This document shows positions 8,132-13,502 of a stretch of 46,457 bases of DNA, in pieces (the stretch's first letter is position 1; every line of letters begins with the position of its first letter). The notes beneath the pieces are model-generated. The model was given only the letters and a program-made list of their open reading frames with translations. It searched no databases and was not told the origin of the DNA. Location: positions 1 through 46,457 of the forward strand of contig JAAELO010000288.1 of assembly GCA_024226555.1 (NCBI GenBank). Reading direction: 5' to 3'. The position numbers and the translations under genes were made by a program. This DNA is from Desulfobacterales bacterium (GTDB taxonomy: Bacteria; Desulfobacterota; Desulfobacteria; Desulfobacterales; JAAELO01).

Positions 8132-9436
8132 ATGTTTTCTAAAAAAATAAAAATTTCATCTGGCATAAGCGATTTTGATCATTATCTTGGTGGACTTTTT
8201 ATAGGTGATAATGTCATTTGGTATGATGATGCAGGTAGCCTTGCTTCAATCTTTTGTATGAATCTGATTGAAACTTCCTCTTTACATAATAAACACTTGA
8301 TTTATGTAAGTTTTGACAGATCACCTAAAAATTTACTTAACTTTCTTGGGCCTTATGCTGAAAATCAAAACCTTACAATTTTAGATTGCTTTACAATGGG
8401 TAAGGGTGATGGGTCTGAGGTTTTTAACAGATTTTATGAGAAAGATGGTGCTCAATGGCCCTATCAGGTCATAAAAGTAAAAGAACCAAAAGATCCTGAA
8501 AAAGTTATGGAAGCTATTTATGGCATACACAAAACAAAAGAAGGTGATGTTCGGTTTATTTTTGAAAGCCTCACAGGAATGCAGGATTTATGGGGCGGAG
8601 AAGATCATATTCTAAAGTTTTACTCCCATTCATGTCCCAGGTTATATGAACTTCAAACTATCGCATATTGGGTTGTTGAAAAAGGGGCCCACTCCAATAC
8701 ATTAAAAGCTCATATCAATCAAATAGCCCAGGTTGCAATAGAACTTTCCATTAACAGGGGGAAGTCCTCTTTAACTATTCTGAAAGCAGAAGGTCGTACT
8801 ATTAATTCTCTTAATAAACCCCGAACTTTCTATAACAAAGGTATCGATGTTGAATTTCGAGAGGATAATAAAAAAAGTACAGGGAATATTGATATTGGTT
8901 TAAGATTAAAAGAGATGAGAGTAAAAAAAGGGTTTACACAGACCGAGCTTGCAAAAATGGTTGGTGTAACACCAAGCAATATTTCACAGGTTGAAGGAAA
9001 TCTCATTTACCCCTCTCTTTCAGCACTCTTAAAAATTGCTGAAACTTTATCGGTAAATATTAAATACTTTTTTGAGGGTGTTTCTGATGAAAAAAGCAAA
9101 CTTGTTTTTTCTCAGGTAGATAGCCTTGATGTAAGTTTTTCAGATTTTCCCAAGGACAGTATCAGAGGAACTCAACTAACACCAGCTCACCTTGACCTCA
9201 AAGCAGAACCTTATATTATTGAGATTCTACCTGGAAAAAAACTCTCTTCTCATTTTTTTAAACATAAAGGGGAGGAAGTTGGTTATATGCTTTCAGGCAA
9301 ACTGAATATTACAGCTGAAAATTCAGTATATACAGCTCGCACAGGTGATCTTATATACCTCTCAACGAGTATGCCATCACAGTGGAAAAACCCGGGACCA
9401 GATGAAGCTAAAGTTCTGTGGATAAAAATGAAATAA
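8132..9436 (+). CDS. KaiC-like/XRE/cupin fusion regulator
   Basis: A 434-residue protein with three parts. Residues about 8-235 resemble a RecA/KaiC-type ATPase domain, opening with SSGISDFDHYLGGLFIGDNV, but the Walker A loop reads DDAGSLAS and lacks the Lys-Thr pair, so nucleotide hydrolysis is doubtful. Residues about 256-312 are a clear XRE helix-turn-helix (KGFTQTELAKMVGVTPSNIS). Residues about 355-430 are a cupin sensor domain (HKGEEVGYMLSGKLNI). It probably represses or activates nearby genes in response to a small ligand. It faces the glutamate synthase gene tail to tail across a shared terminator. The target genes are unknown. Confidence 0.88.
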   Translation: MFSKKIKISSGISDFDHYLGGLFIGDNVIWYDDAGSLASIFCMNLIETSSLHNKHLIYVSFDRSPKNLLNFLGPYAENQNLTILDCFTMGKGDGSEVFNRFYEKDGAQWPYQVIKVKEPKDPEKVMEAIYGIHKTKEGDVRFIFESLTGMQDLWGGEDHILKFYSHSCPRLYELQTIAYWVVEKGAHSNTLKAHINQIAQVAIELSINRGKSSLTILKAEGRTINSLNKPRTFYNKGIDVEFREDNKKSTGNIDIGLRLKEMRVKKGFTQTELAKMVGVTPSNISQVEGNLIYPSLSALLKIAETLSVNIKYFFEGVSDEKSKLVFSQVDSLDVSFSDFPKDSIRGTQLTPAHLDLKAEPYIIEILPGKKLSSHFFKHKGEEVGYMLSGKLNITAENSVYTARTGDLIYLSTSMPSQWKNPGPDEAKVLWIKMK

Positions 9437-9493: not shown

Positions 9494-11131
9494 CTAACCA
9501 TTAAGAATTTTCTTTGCAATTTCATCATTATAATCTGAAACATGAGGAATTCCTGTTTCCACTGCAGTTTCTCTGTTTCCAGAGAACAGGTCTTCTCTTG
9601 ATATCTGATCCAATGAAAATTTTCTGGCCCCAGCCATTAACTGCTGGATTCCACAAGCAAGCTTATCAGCCATAGTCCAGAAAGCGATAGCTCCGTATGG
9701 AATATTCTTCATCTCATCCTTACCAATTTTCTTCTGCACATCATGGTAAGAAGCAAAAATTTCTTCTGCGCTGTTCCCAAGGGCTGAAACAGATTTTGGA
9801 AGTTTATCCCAGTTTCCAAATACTTTGTTTTTTCTTTCAGGGTGTAGAACACCTTCGATATTTGAACCAAGGTAACCTGGAATCATTATCGCTCTACCCA
9901 TACATATCAGTTTTGTAAAAGGAGCTCCCAGTGCCAGCGACTTAAACATGCTGTCTTCAAGTGCAAAGCCTCCTGCAAAAGACATATCAACAACTTTTTC
10001 ACCTTTTGCCGCTAGAATACTTGCATATTCGTACGCTTTTGCGTGAAGATTAATTGAAGGAACGCCCCAGCTGTGCATCATATTCCATGGACTCATACCA
10101 GTTCCACCACCAGATCCGTCTATTGTAAGAAGGTCAAGTTTTGCATCTGTGGAAAATTTAATCGCCATTGCAAGCTCTTCCATTCCGTAAGAGCCTGTTT
10201 TTAGAGAAATTCTCTTGAAACCTAAGCTTCTGAGGTAATCAACACTCTTCATAAAATCTTCACGAACAAGATCAGATGTATCGATATCAGTTCCGCCAAG
10301 TCTGCTGTGACGTGCGAATGAACTAATAGCACCGGCATTAAATGCTTCCTGAACTTCAGGTAATTCAGGATTTGGATCAACAACATATCCACGTTTCTTA
10401 AGGAAAAGGGCATAATCAAGTGATGTAACCTGAATCTCACCACCAATATCTTTAGCTCCCTGCCCCCATTTTAACTCAATAATACACTTGTTCCCATATT
10501 TTTCAGCTACATATTCAGCAACACCATTTCTTGTATCTTCAACATTAAGTTGAACTATAATAGCGCCATACCCATCATTATATCGAAGATAGGTATCAAT
10601 TCTTCGTTCAAGCTCAGGAGCTTTAAAAACTCTTCCATTTTCAATCTCTGATTCACGGTCAACACCAACAACGTTCTCACCGATAACAACAGGTATACCA
10701 GTAAGGGAACCACCTATAGCAAAAGAATCCCAATACTTGGAGGCAATAAATGTAGAACCTAAAGCGCCTGTCATCATAGGCATTCTAATTTTGGTTTTCA
10801 TTTCATTACCAAACTCAGTTTCAAGATTTACATTTGGAAAGATACAATCATCTGGATTATTAGTTAAACCTTCGGAAAGACCGTTGGAACCATAAGCATG
10901 ACCCTGAATTCTTAATGAGTTGTATGAAACACCAACGTGCGTTGTGTTGTTACTACCAGCAGTAATCTTACCAAAACTTCTTGGATATAATAGTTTACGT
11001 CCAACAAGACCGGAAAGCCAGGTTTCACATTTACCCTGACAATCTGCTCTACAAAGTGAACATAGACTTGATTCACAAGGGTTACCACGATTGACTGTTC
11101 CTAAAGCATCATTTATTTTCGAAAATCTCAT
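9494..11131 (-). CDS. Glutamate synthase FMN-domain subunit (archaeal-type GltB)
   Basis: A 545-residue FMN-binding glutamate synthase family protein. It covers the central FMN/2-oxoglutarate domain: KCIIELKWGQGAKDIGGE, LLTIDGSGGGTGMSP and the barrel end SFAGGFALEDSMFKSLALGA. The N-terminus has a cysteine cluster C19-x4-C24-x2-C27-x3-C31-x3-C35 that could hold an iron-sulfur centre. The amidotransferase and GXGXG domains of full-length GltB are absent, as in split synthases. It would make glutamate from 2-oxoglutarate with ammonia supplied by a partner such as the product of the gene at 12387. It has a GGGAG ribosome site and lies behind an ANTAR-type leader with terminator. Confidence 0.92.
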   Translation of the reverse strand: MRFSKINDALGTVNRGNPCESSLCSLCRADCQGKCETWLSGLVGRKLLYPRSFGKITAGSNNTTHVGVSYNSLRIQGHAYGSNGLSEGLTNNPDDCIFPNVNLETEFGNEMKTKIRMPMMTGALGSTFIASKYWDSFAIGGSLTGIPVVIGENVVGVDRESEIENGRVFKAPELERRIDTYLRYNDGYGAIIVQLNVEDTRNGVAEYVAEKYGNKCIIELKWGQGAKDIGGEIQVTSLDYALFLKKRGYVVDPNPELPEVQEAFNAGAISSFARHSRLGGTDIDTSDLVREDFMKSVDYLRSLGFKRISLKTGSYGMEELAMAIKFSTDAKLDLLTIDGSGGGTGMSPWNMMHSWGVPSINLHAKAYEYASILAAKGEKVVDMSFAGGFALEDSMFKSLALGAPFTKLICMGRAIMIPGYLGSNIEGVLHPERKNKVFGNWDKLPKSVSALGNSAEEIFASYHDVQKKIGKDEMKNIPYGAIAFWTMADKLACGIQQLMAGARKFSLDQISREDLFSGNRETAVETGIPHVSDYNDEIAKKILNG

Positions 11132-11204: not shown

Positions 11205-11256
11205 TAAAACACAAAAAGGCATCTGCCCTTTTATTTAAGGGATACAGACACCTTTG
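11205..11256 (-). terminator. Leader terminator upstream of glutamate synthase
   Basis: On the minus strand an 11-bp stem (AAAGGTGTCTG with CAGATGCCTTT, all positions pairing if two G-U pairs are allowed) continues into an inner CCCTT/AAGGG stem. A TTTTTGTGTTTT run follows. It stands between the ANTAR-type hairpins and the synthase start codon, the position expected for a regulated intrinsic terminator. Confidence 0.85.
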
Positions 11257-11269
11257 TCATTTTATTTTT

Positions 11270-11313
11270 TTACATCAATGTAATATTATTTTGTACGCCA
11301 TTGTACAGAATAA
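11270..11313 (-). promoter_or_regulatory. Dual-hexaloop ANTAR target RNA
   Basis: Two adjacent minus-strand hairpins with six-base loops. The first (plus positions 11292-11307, stem extended to 11286-11313) is TGTAC-AATGGC-GTACA. The second (11270-11283) is TTAC-ATTGAT-GTAA. Both loops have A at position 1 and G at position 4, the published recognition rule for ANTAR-domain antiterminators. They precede a strong terminator and the glutamate synthase gene, and a GAF-ANTAR protein is encoded immediately upstream on the same strand. The match of loops, order and context is seen; binding is inferred. Confidence 0.82.
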
Positions 11314-11500
11314 TAGCAAATTATATATAATAATTTATGAGATATTTTATTAGCACTACTTATCCGCTGTGTCAAGCTGTTATGATGTTTTTAGTGTATG
11401 TTAATTAATGAGAATCATAAACTTTGATGATATTGTATTTTAAAGAATAGTTAAATTTGAAAATTATTTTAAATAAAGAATATATTTAATATTGTGGTTA

Positions 11501-12214
11501 CTAATATAGCTCTTCAGATATCAGGATAGCATCTGCAATTTGACGTATTGTTTTTCTTGAATCCATACTTCTTTTCCTGATCCATTTATATGCCTCATCA
11601 CTTTTCATATCGCGTCTGTTCATCAAAACTTCCTTTGCCCTGTCCAGAAGTTTTCTTGTTTCAAGTTCCTCCTCAATCACCTTGGTCTTAACCATCAATT
11701 CAGTGTTTAAAATAGCAACAGCGGCCTGATTGGCAACTGCAGTAACCATATTAATCTCAGTTGAGGTAAAATTATGTGCTGTAGAGGTAAAGCAATTTAA
11801 GGCTCCAATAACCTGCTTGTTTTTTAGTTGAAGTGGGACTCCAATCATCGAAACCAGACCTAATTCTGCAGCCATCTCTTTCTCTTTGAAAAGATCGTTT
11901 TCTATAACATTCTTTATAACTATGGGAATTTTTTTGGATACAATGTTGCCAACAACACCTTCATTCATATCAAGAGAGCGATCCTTCACATATTCAGGTG
12001 AAATTGACTGGGTTGCTTTTAGCCTGATTTTAGGAGGAACTTCGTCATCATCAACAAGCCATAATGAGCATATTTCAACTTCTGTTACTTTTGCTGTAGC
12101 CATTACAATGAGTTTCAAAATGTCATCCAGGTATAAATCTGATGTAATAGCTCTACTGATATCTGTTAGAGCCTTGATGTATAGATCAAGTGTTTTGTAT
12201 TCTGAAGTATCCAT
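11501..12214 (-). CDS. GAF-ANTAR antiterminator protein
   Basis: A 237-residue cytoplasmic regulator. Residues about 15-165 form a GAF sensor domain (EGVVGNIVSKKIPIVIKNV, VSMIGVPLQLKNKQVIGALN). Residues about 180-235 form an ANTAR RNA-binding domain (LLDRAKEVLMNRRDMKSDEA, DSRKTIRQIADAILISEEL). ANTAR proteins bind paired hexaloop hairpins in nascent RNA and prevent termination. The gene lies just upstream of such a leader and of the glutamate synthase gene, and is divergent from the amidotransferase-like gene, so control of glutamate synthesis by a nitrogen-related signal is the simplest reading. AGGG sits only three bases before the ATG, and the start lies within a possible TATTCTG/CAGAATA stem. 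Confidence 0.92.
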   Translation of the reverse strand: MDTSEYKTLDLYIKALTDISRAITSDLYLDDILKLIVMATAKVTEVEICSLWLVDDDEVPPKIRLKATQSISPEYVKDRSLDMNEGVVGNIVSKKIPIVIKNVIENDLFKEKEMAAELGLVSMIGVPLQLKNKQVIGALNCFTSTAHNFTSTEINMVTAVANQAAVAILNTELMVKTKVIEEELETRKLLDRAKEVLMNRRDMKSDEAYKWIRKRSMDSRKTIRQIADAILISEELY

Positions 12215-12302
12215 GGACCCTAATGTACAGAATAATAGGGTATTTTACAATACCATATAAATGTTATTTTTCTATTTTTAGATATTTATTCATAATATTG
12301 CC

Positions 12303-12335
12303 TTGACATTAAGTACAACTAATATTTATTAATAT
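12303..12335 (+). promoter_or_regulatory. Possible sigma-70 promoter of the amidotransferase-like gene
   Basis: A perfect TTGACA (12303-12308) is followed after 17 bases by TTATTA, with a TAATAT a few bases further. The -10 match is weak, so only the -35 is convincing. It lies in the 172-bp divergent region and points to the gene at 12387. Confidence 0.4.
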
Positions 12336-12386: not shown

Positions 12387-13502
12387 ATGGGAAAATTATT
12401 AGCTATTTCTTCTGACGATTATAGAACTCCAGTGGATGGACTTAAAAGTCTGAGTGCTATGAGCGAAGAGTTCGATTCTAACTCTGTCACTGGTATTCTT
12501 TTAAGAGATCTTGGTGGACCATTCAAAACATTGAAAAAATATCCAGTGTTATCAGGTGTTTTTACAAGAGAAGGTATTAGAAAACTGGATATATTTATGC
12601 TTGAAATGGGCTTTATGACAAAATATAAGGTCTCATTTAAAATAACTAATAATAAAAATGGTGATATACCACAAAGAGATGTATATCTGATTAGAGTTTA
12701 TGATTTTCCTTATAATTGGGATAACATAACATCAACCGAAGCTGAATCCAAATTAATGGATATCTGCCTTGAGCTTAAAAGAATGAGTGAAGAAAAAAAT
12801 GATATGACCGTTTTCTCTTTCTGGCCCGATGTTATATTAATGAAAGAGATAATATCACCATTGGAAATAATAGAACATCTTGAACTGGATAGAGTAGAAT
12901 TCTCTGCAAAATTGATGATGTTATATGTTAATGAATCAAACGGGTTTGATAAAAACCTATACTCTTTTAATCCATCTTTTCTTCAGGGTTATGCGTCAAT
13001 GAATAATGGTGAAAATAACAGTTACATTAAGAATAGAGATTTCTTATCATCAAGAAAATCTTATAATTATTGTTCATCAAGATCAGAGACTCTAACCCAA
13101 ATCCTACACTACTATATTTCTGCACTTGAGCTTGAAATAAAAAACATCAAACATGTAATTTCACCTTTAACAGGAAAAGAGCTTAAAGAACATCAGGATA
13201 GTAATTTTCTTACTATGCTAAAACACTCTTGCAGAAGTATGAGTATTGATGGCGCTCAATGTTTAATAGGCAGCCTTCCAGACAATACTCTTTTCCTTAC
13301 AAAGGATGCAAAAAGTATTACTACATGTGTTGTCGGTACAAAACCTGGTATTACGGCTTTTTCCTCTGAAATAACAGGACTTGAAAAGCTACTGCCAGAT
13401 AGGGATAAAACACAAGACTATCAACCTGCTCATGATGAATTAATAGTTCTTAATCCAACAAATCCGGAAATGGAAATTCACAGTCAACAGAATAGAATAT
13501 AG
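12387..13502 (+). CDS. Glutamine-amidotransferase-like glutamate synthase partner
   Basis: A 371-residue protein resembling the class II amidotransferase subunit that accompanies split glutamate synthases. Recognisable stretches are GILLRDLGGPF, FLQGYASMNNGENNSYIKNR, RSETLTQILHYYISALEL, DGAQCLIGSLPDN and LEKLLPDRDKTQDYQPAHDE. Family members would deliver ammonia from glutamine to the FMN subunit. Class II enzymes use a cysteine at residue 2, but here the protein begins Met-Gly-Lys with no cysteine in the first hundred residues, so glutaminase activity is doubtful. A GGAAAG ribosome site precedes the ATG. The stop TAG spans the junction with a repeat terminus at 13502. Confidence 0.8.
   Translation: MGKLLAISSDDYRTPVDGLKSLSAMSEEFDSNSVTGILLRDLGGPFKTLKKYPVLSGVFTREGIRKLDIFMLEMGFMTKYKVSFKITNNKNGDIPQRDVYLIRVYDFPYNWDNITSTEAESKLMDICLELKRMSEEKNDMTVFSFWPDVILMKEIISPLEIIEHLELDRVEFSAKLMMLYVNESNGFDKNLYSFNPSFLQGYASMNNGENNSYIKNRDFLSSRKSYNYCSSRSETLTQILHYYISALELEIKNIKHVISPLTGKELKEHQDSNFLTMLKHSCRSMSIDGAQCLIGSLPDNTLFLTKDAKSITTCVVGTKPGITAFSSEITGLEKLLPDRDKTQDYQPAHDELIVLNPTNPEMEIHSQQNRI

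Follow-up and report, generated by a model that had tools for sequence, protein, structure and literature searches.

The DNA analysed here, referred to as the window, is a stretch of 46,457 nucleotides from a Desulfobacterales bacterium, the GenBank assembly of which comprises 7.69 Mb in 904 contigs. Between a gene for a GAF-ANTAR regulator and a glutamate synthase gene, both located on the minus strand, it contains a leader with hexaloop hairpins and an intrinsic terminator (Table 1). The glutamate synthase is presumably of the FMN-type. Beyond the regulator gene, a divergent gene encodes an amidotransferase-like protein which is probably the partner subunit of the glutamate synthase. Searches of this protein against Pfam and NCBIfam gave no match. 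It begins with MGKL while its four homologues begin with MCRL, meaning that the usual N-terminal cysteine nucleophile is absent; a second copy of the gene in the genome (G000:C520:31767-32891) begins with MCRL. Homologues of the PuuR-like protein encoded next to the glutamate synthase gene were detected in nine fetched loci of relatives (e.g. L006, L106 and L124).

Table 1. Features of the leader and of its surroundings in the window.
Feature	Position	Strand	Remarks
P1 hexaloop hairpin	11284..11315 (core 11306-11293)	-	GUAC-AAUGGC-GUAC
Extra hexaloop (second hairpin of the original prediction)	11270..11283	-	weak, UUAC-AUUGAU-GUAA
P2 hexaloop, antiterminator hairpin	11247..11258	-	GAC-AAAGGU-GUC, aligned to the near-invariant GAC-AAAGGC-GUC of relatives
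Intrinsic terminator	11206..11255	-	outer stem of 11 bp, AAAGGUGUCUG (11255-11245) paired with CAGAUGCCUUU (11225-11215), then U-rich tract
Promoter of the glutamate synthase transcript	11347..11375	-	TTGACA-N17-TAATAA, read directly
Operator-like palindrome	11350..11362	-	TWAGTNNNRCTAA, overlaps the spacer of the glutamate synthase promoter
Second operator-like motif	12310-12322	+	TWAGTNNNRCTAA, at the promoter of the divergent gene starting at 12387
GAF-ANTAR regulator gene	11501..12214	-	237 aa; PF03861 (ANTAR), 64.9 bits, and three GAF models
Glutamate synthase gene	9494..11131	-	downstream of the leader; PF01645 (Glu_synthase), 48.1 bits
Divergent amidotransferase-like gene	12387..13502	+	43-47% identity to four leader-following proteins of relatives
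HTH and cupin protein (PuuR-like)	8132-9436	+	convergent to the glutamate synthase gene; no Pfam match in the N-terminal part

The original prediction for this region described two adjacent hexaloop hairpins whose loops (AAUGGC and AUUGAU) begin with A and have G as the fourth base (A1/G4), an intrinsic terminator with an 11-bp outer stem and a GAF-ANTAR gene upstream. All of these elements were found on the minus strand, and the 14 bases said to separate the AUUGAU hairpin from the terminator were confirmed. By contrast, the assignment of AUUGAU as the hairpin competing with the terminator had to be abandoned. In relatives, the layout detected 3′ of many ANTAR orthologues is P1 (GYAC-AAUGGC-GUGC), approximately 20 nt, P2 (AGAC-AAAGGC-GUCU) and a terminator, whose 5′ arm consists of the P2 loop and its 3′ strand; at some other ANTAR orthologue loci no leader follows directly. 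The window possesses a counterpart of this P2, GAC-AAAGGU-GUC, which had been overlooked and whose loop and 3′ strand likewise form the 5′ arm of the terminator. Due to this overlap, P2 and the terminator directly exclude each other and the extended terminator stem postulated earlier is not needed. The leader thus harbors two A1/G4 hexaloops (AAUGGC and AAAGGU), as ANTAR target RNAs do, the second of which overlaps an intrinsic terminator. AUUGAU was rejected as P2 because the conserved hairpin is GAC-AAAGGY-GUC and because, in the set of 131 leaders introduced below, only one of the other 130 (L166) has a linker containing an A1/G4 hexaloop closed by C-G. It is at most an extra hexaloop and possibly a third ANTAR site.

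The P1 stem of the window consists of 5 and 7 bp around a mismatch. P2, with just 3 bp beyond its loop, is weaker than usual. Its loop ends in U, as in 7 of the 131 leaders, and A1 can pair with this U6; when P2 is enforced, a tetraloop appears in the fold. The terminator is part of the free fold at the decision point (-31.8 kcal/mol), whereas enforcing P2 gave -26.2 kcal/mol. The cost of P2, 5.6 kcal/mol, would have to be paid by the bound protein and by the order of folding. On the minus strand the leader folds better than all of 200 shuffles (z -4.10). Past the terminator, a strong hairpin CUGUAUCC/GGAUACAG (11248-11196, minus strand) would, once readthrough has occurred, draw the terminator region into a new fold, and a CUCCC beside it is complementary to the GGGAG ribosome site. 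As a terminator this hairpin was discarded, since the U tract is transcribed before its 3′ arm (11203-11196), and downstream of this arm comes CUCCCUUUAAA instead of a U run.

A seed alignment was prepared with MAFFT from the leaders of 13 relatives, leaving out the window and the long-insert leaders L004, L006 and L025. The pattern used to choose the seed leaders demanded A1 and G4 of the P2 loop but made G4 optional in P1, and the alignment was not fitted to structure. The window-free covariance model built from it (R1) recognised the window at 11213-11310 with 46.1 bits, while a second match in the window was at chance level (14.6 bits, E 0.19). Over the whole 7.7-Mb genome, the leader before glutamate synthase was the sole match at E ≤ 1 (E 3.5e-6). 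Matches were obtained at E ≤ 0.01 in 125 of 242 genomes of the order and at E ≤ 0.001 in 76 of 395 of the phylum, 64 of the latter lying outside the order. None of the Rfam families matched the window at its gathering score, and the 17 leader matches found there at E ≤ 10 were all below the gathering scores. For bulk comparisons, 131 leaders out of at least 150 matches were collected from 104 genomes (30 loci, 100 fetched stretches and the window); as they are mostly the better-scoring matches, this set is biased towards the model.

Loops conserved in relatives were a demand of the original prediction; such conservation was seen for P1 and P2, and not for the AUUGAU hairpin. A1 and G4 are jointly present in P1 of 124 and in P2 of 121 of the 131 leaders, the script behind the P2 count favouring A1/G4 loops whenever there was a choice of P2 candidates. 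Without the 13 seeds and the window, the values are 111 of 117 (P1) and 107 of 117 (P2). Covariation between orthologous leaders, also suggested at the outset, was seen for P1 and the terminator. For these two elements, 95.0% of the cells in the seed alignment are paired and seven pairs have changed on both sides, a result that none of 500 shuffles reached. In an alignment fitted to the model and comprising 101 matches from 100 distinct leaders, 11 pairs (178 cells) have changed on both sides, again with none of 500 shuffles as high. For the P2 stem, on the other hand, there is no convincing covariation and none is claimed as proof. Four of its outer pairs have changed on both sides, which 4 of 500 shuffles also achieved; for the other measures, 31 to 166 of 500 shuffles did as well, and on three measures the outer pairs score below an alignment slid by +1. 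This can be attributed to the core GAC/GUC, which hardly varies. The GAC that precedes the terminator arm and lies outside the terminator pairing is nearly invariant (G in 100, A in 101 and C in 101 of the 101 sequences). Likewise, the 5′ arm of the terminator is almost fixed while the 3′ arm drifts by G-U-compatible changes. A fixed 5′ arm together with an invariant GAC is what would be expected if the 5′ arm doubles as P2, and throughout the 100 distinct leaders of the alignment, P2 and the terminator share columns.

The putative target genes were determined as the longest open frame starting at most 900 nt from each of the 131 leaders and were grouped by single-linkage BLAST clustering; ten representative proteins were run against Pfam. 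Most leaders (92) precede a gene of the glutamate synthase FMN-domain cluster to which the gene in the window belongs. MetV-like genes follow 18 leaders (e.g. L067, L091 and L106), two groups of amidotransferase-like proteins five and four, and glutamate dehydrogenase four. A large glutamate synthase, a glutamine synthetase, the small chain of carbamoyl-phosphate synthase, a FlpD-like protein and one unnamed protein occur as single targets, and in three cases the target was too short to tell. The representative of the amidotransferase group of five scored 26.8 bits with GATase_6, for which the cut-off is 27. That of the group of four had no Pfam match; by its MCRL motif we take this group to be class-II amidotransferase-like. 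A short, similar-looking frame precedes MetV in all nine of the 18 cases that were inspected, and in L067, the sole case scanned, FlpD and MetV were called by Pfam (PF02662 and PF12225). The MetV-like leaders thus stand before one-carbon rather than nitrogen genes, which hints at a link of nitrogen status to one-carbon metabolism. On the whole, the leader type is real and widespread in front of nitrogen-assimilation genes of many related bacteria.

Orthologues of the GAF-ANTAR protein (53-71% identity) were detected in 31 of 57 relatives. The named records matching the protein (n=5) comprise two Desulfobacteraceae, a Desulfobacula, a Deltaproteobacterium and an Omnitrophota MAG. The leader is present in 28 of the 31 relatives with the ANTAR protein but in only 1 of the 26 lacking it (Fisher p 8e-12), and after removal of the 13 seed genomes the association persisted (both 15, ANTAR only 3, leader only 1, neither 25; p 5e-8). 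The three ANTAR-bearing genomes without a leader match are G018, in which the contig ends 244 bases past the ANTAR match, G041 and G051, while the leader-bearing genome without an ANTAR match, G031, is 65% complete. The leader is preceded by a same-strand ANTAR match, 55-982 nt upstream, at 60 of 130 loci. For 71 of the 131 leaders there is no ANTAR gene in the fetched stretch, which in 59 of these cases covered at least 1000 upstream bases. At such loci the protein would have to act in trans.

The ANTAR domain (PF03861) of the window protein retains 7 of the 11 RNA-contact residues of EutV that are named in the excerpted text of PMC8934654. R142, K143, K149, Y164, R168, M172 and R175 are identical, whereas K147, N173, E160 and R177 are replaced by R, D, S and T, respectively; the dimer contacts E146 and E161 of EutV are both D. 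These contacts were placed by eye on an alignment, assuming the numbering to be offset by 2.

With the parts of the leader, their conservation, the mutual exclusion of P2 and terminator and the co-occurrence with the protein established at the sequence level, the leader is very probably an ANTAR antitermination switch before the glutamate synthase gene, run by the GAF-ANTAR protein. The idea of such a leader with an adjacent regulator, put forward in the original prediction, gained strong support from conservation, covariation, co-occurrence and gene context, while the pairing of hairpins chosen there did not hold. According to this scheme, RNA polymerase would start near 11340, a position deduced from the promoter, and P1, P2 and the terminator would be transcribed in this order. 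By default, the AAAGGUGUCUG/CAGAUGCCUUU terminator would fold and stop transcription before the glutamate synthase gene. An active dimer of the GAF-ANTAR protein, the proposed one-component antiterminator, would bind P1 and then P2, and with P2 held closed no terminator would form and the polymerase would read through. The binding and the direction of control are what we infer here, as is the ligand discussed below.

A pair of A1/G4 hexaloops alone is not rare. With stems of at least 4 bp, a loose rule, 13 pairs were counted in the 46-kb window (9 on the plus and 4 on the minus strand), and 47 of 5000 dinucleotide shuffles of the leader gave such a pair. One might hence regard the hairpins as incidental companions of a plain attenuator or constitutive terminator, the ANTAR protein acting elsewhere, but the single match of a window-free model in 7.7 Mb, the conserved loops and the co-occurrence with ANTAR make this highly improbable. 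The cognate protein could also be a different one, since two ANTAR domains are encoded in the genome. The other ANTAR protein is presumably a response regulator of the REC-ANTAR-like type, encoded in an eut-like locus (C332) with a sensor-kinase-like gene behind it. That it rather than the GAF-ANTAR neighbour acts on the leader can hardly be assumed, given that, of the 31 relatives with an ANTAR domain, only G034 has two ANTAR matches and the other 30 have one each, that the same 31 possess a full-length GAF-ANTAR orthologue and that this orthologue often adjoins the leader. The alternative hairpin CUGUAUCC/GGAUACAG past the terminator and the CUCCC able to pair with the GGGAG ribosome site would fit a control of the opposite sense or at the level of translation, with the terminator being stabilised or the ribosome site hidden. 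Such an action is very unlikely in view of the columns shared by P2 and the terminator and of the arrangement known from EutV targets (PMC3369931 and PMC8934654, as excerpted).

A variant of the antitermination switch concerns the AUUGAU hairpin, which may be a working ANTAR site so that the dimer steps from P1 to the middle hexaloop and on to P2. The P1-P2 linker of the window (34 nt) is one of only 7 among the 131 leaders that exceed 29 nt (median 21; 119 leaders at 14-29), and the hairpin would bridge it, leaving 11 nt to P2. For EutV, a linker lengthened by 20 nt abolished antitermination (PMC8934654, in the excerpted text), and the long linker of the window counts against the switch itself. 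Beyond P1 and P2, the 131 leaders contain eight C-G-closed A1/G4 hexaloops, six in the 90 nt upstream and two in linkers, the AUUGAU hairpin being one of the latter, while 0.74 and 0.10, respectively, were expected from shuffles and none of 100 shuffles was as high in either region. However, the extra hexaloop of L139 is probably the true P1, since the P1 assigned by the model is aberrant there, and the long-linker leaders L089, L126, L136, L140 and L147 have no C-G-closed A1/G4 hexaloop in the middle. Without the C-G closing rule the excess disappeared (13 and 3 versus 14.1 and 2.5). Among the nine loop classes tested, which differ in the bases at positions 1 and 4, the control classes C-G-closed A1/T4 upstream (5 versus 1.6) and G1/G4 in linkers (1 versus 0.04) were also somewhat high, each value being reached by 4 of 100 shuffles. 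The AUUGAU hairpin has a pairing probability of 0.37-0.51 at the decision point, and the genomes searched were all from outside the genus and family of the window. The excess of third hexaloops in the leader family is thus only suggestive, and a relay over three hexaloops in the window is conceivable yet rather doubtful.

As to the signal, the best NCBIfam match of the GAF region is NifA (residues 12-205, 57.3 bits, E 1.2e-15), for which the whole-protein cut-off is 528.85, followed by a phosphoenolpyruvate-protein phosphotransferase model. Among solved structures, 3ci6 (GAF of a phosphoenolpyruvate-protein phosphotransferase) and 3e0y (conserved domain protein) matched best; the NifA-like Nlh1 was weaker. 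The GAF domain of Azotobacter NifA binds 2-oxoglutarate, according to the excerpted text of PMC9866876. Together with the likeness to NifA, this makes nitrogen status the most likely signal to be sensed by the NifA-like GAF domain, with 2-oxoglutarate possibly as its ligand. The GAF-ANTAR protein has a clear candidate RNA, a conserved set of targets and a likely type of signal, which renders nitrogen control by antitermination in Desulfobacterota directly testable.

Desulfotomaculum reducens is a Firmicute and Pelobacter carbinolicus a member of the phylum to which the window belongs. ANTAR substrates in which P2 overlaps a terminator were predicted in 2012 at glutamate synthase genes of the former, nitrogenase genes of the latter and, more broadly, nitrogen genes (PMC3369931, main text in excerpt). 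The leader of the window resembles both, lying before glutamate synthase like the substrate of D. reducens and belonging to a family that precedes nitrogen genes like that of P. carbinolicus. Thus, as far as the excerpts of that paper go, the kind of control and even the target glutamate synthase were already known, while a GAF-ANTAR partner, a test of co-occurrence and a third hexaloop do not appear in them. Another closely similar dual-hexaloop antiterminator system is EutV of the Enterococcus faecalis eut operon (PMC3369931 and PMC8934654, in part). As in EutV targets, there are two A1/G4 hexaloops with P2 embedded in an intrinsic terminator, and the ANTAR domain of the window protein keeps most of the RNA-contact residues. 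Unlike EutV, which is a phosphorylated response regulator acting on eut targets, the putative partner here has a GAF sensor next to its ANTAR domain, and its predicted targets comprise glutamate synthase and further nitrogen genes. In the excerpted text of PMC7496416, ANTAR domains are said to occur with NIT, PAS and GAF sensors, and PAL and NasR are the only characterised one-component ANTAR proteins named as of 2020. NasR is a nitrate-sensing NIT-ANTAR protein; the regulator described here is predicted to be a one-component ANTAR regulator of nitrogen genes as well, with a GAF instead of a NIT sensor and probably a signal other than the nitrate of NasR. Among the literature matches listed, with PMC3369931 covered by excerpts of its main text, none concerned ANTAR leaders in Desulfobacterales or a GAF-ANTAR protein with an assigned RNA. 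What appears to be newer are the GAF-ANTAR partner, the possible third hexaloops and the wider target set. It may be speculated, though as a whole this is unlikely, that a GAF-ANTAR subfamily with no characterised member among the literature matches listed is a dedicated antiterminator of Desulfobacterota responding to nitrogen status (perhaps 2-oxoglutarate), which controls glutamate synthase, glutamate dehydrogenase, glutamine synthetase and the FlpD-MetV one-carbon operon, and that some leaders including the one in the window use a third hexaloop between P1 and P2.

A promoter-like pair of hexamers is located upstream of 129 of the 131 leaders in a permissive scan run without shuffle control. 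The promoter of the glutamate synthase transcript is absent from a stricter scan, whose rule asks for a T as the last base of the second hexamer. The operator-like motif TWAGTNNNRCTAA has two copies in the 46-kb window, one at each of the two promoters listed in Table 1, while 0.65 were expected and at least two occurred in 16 of 100 shuffles. In a slightly looser form, the motif precedes 43 of 121 leaders at a distance of up to 150 nt, compared to 1 and 1 in two control stretches, which suggests a second layer of control at transcription initiation. The PuuR-like protein with HTH and cupin domains is a candidate reader of this motif.

The region upstream of the ANTAR gene was considered as a further leader and dismissed: it shares a 14-mer with P1 and, by eye, has no stemmed A1/G4 hexaloop. 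This 14-mer, TATTATTCTGTACA, is an exact copy of the P1 5′ strand at 12224-12237 on the minus strand, just 5′ of the ANTAR start codon. It has two copies in the window where 0.00 were expected, and the upstream one lies inside a possible ACCCUA/UAGGGU hairpin. Both autoregulation of the ANTAR gene and a duplicated fragment are possible explanations for this copy.
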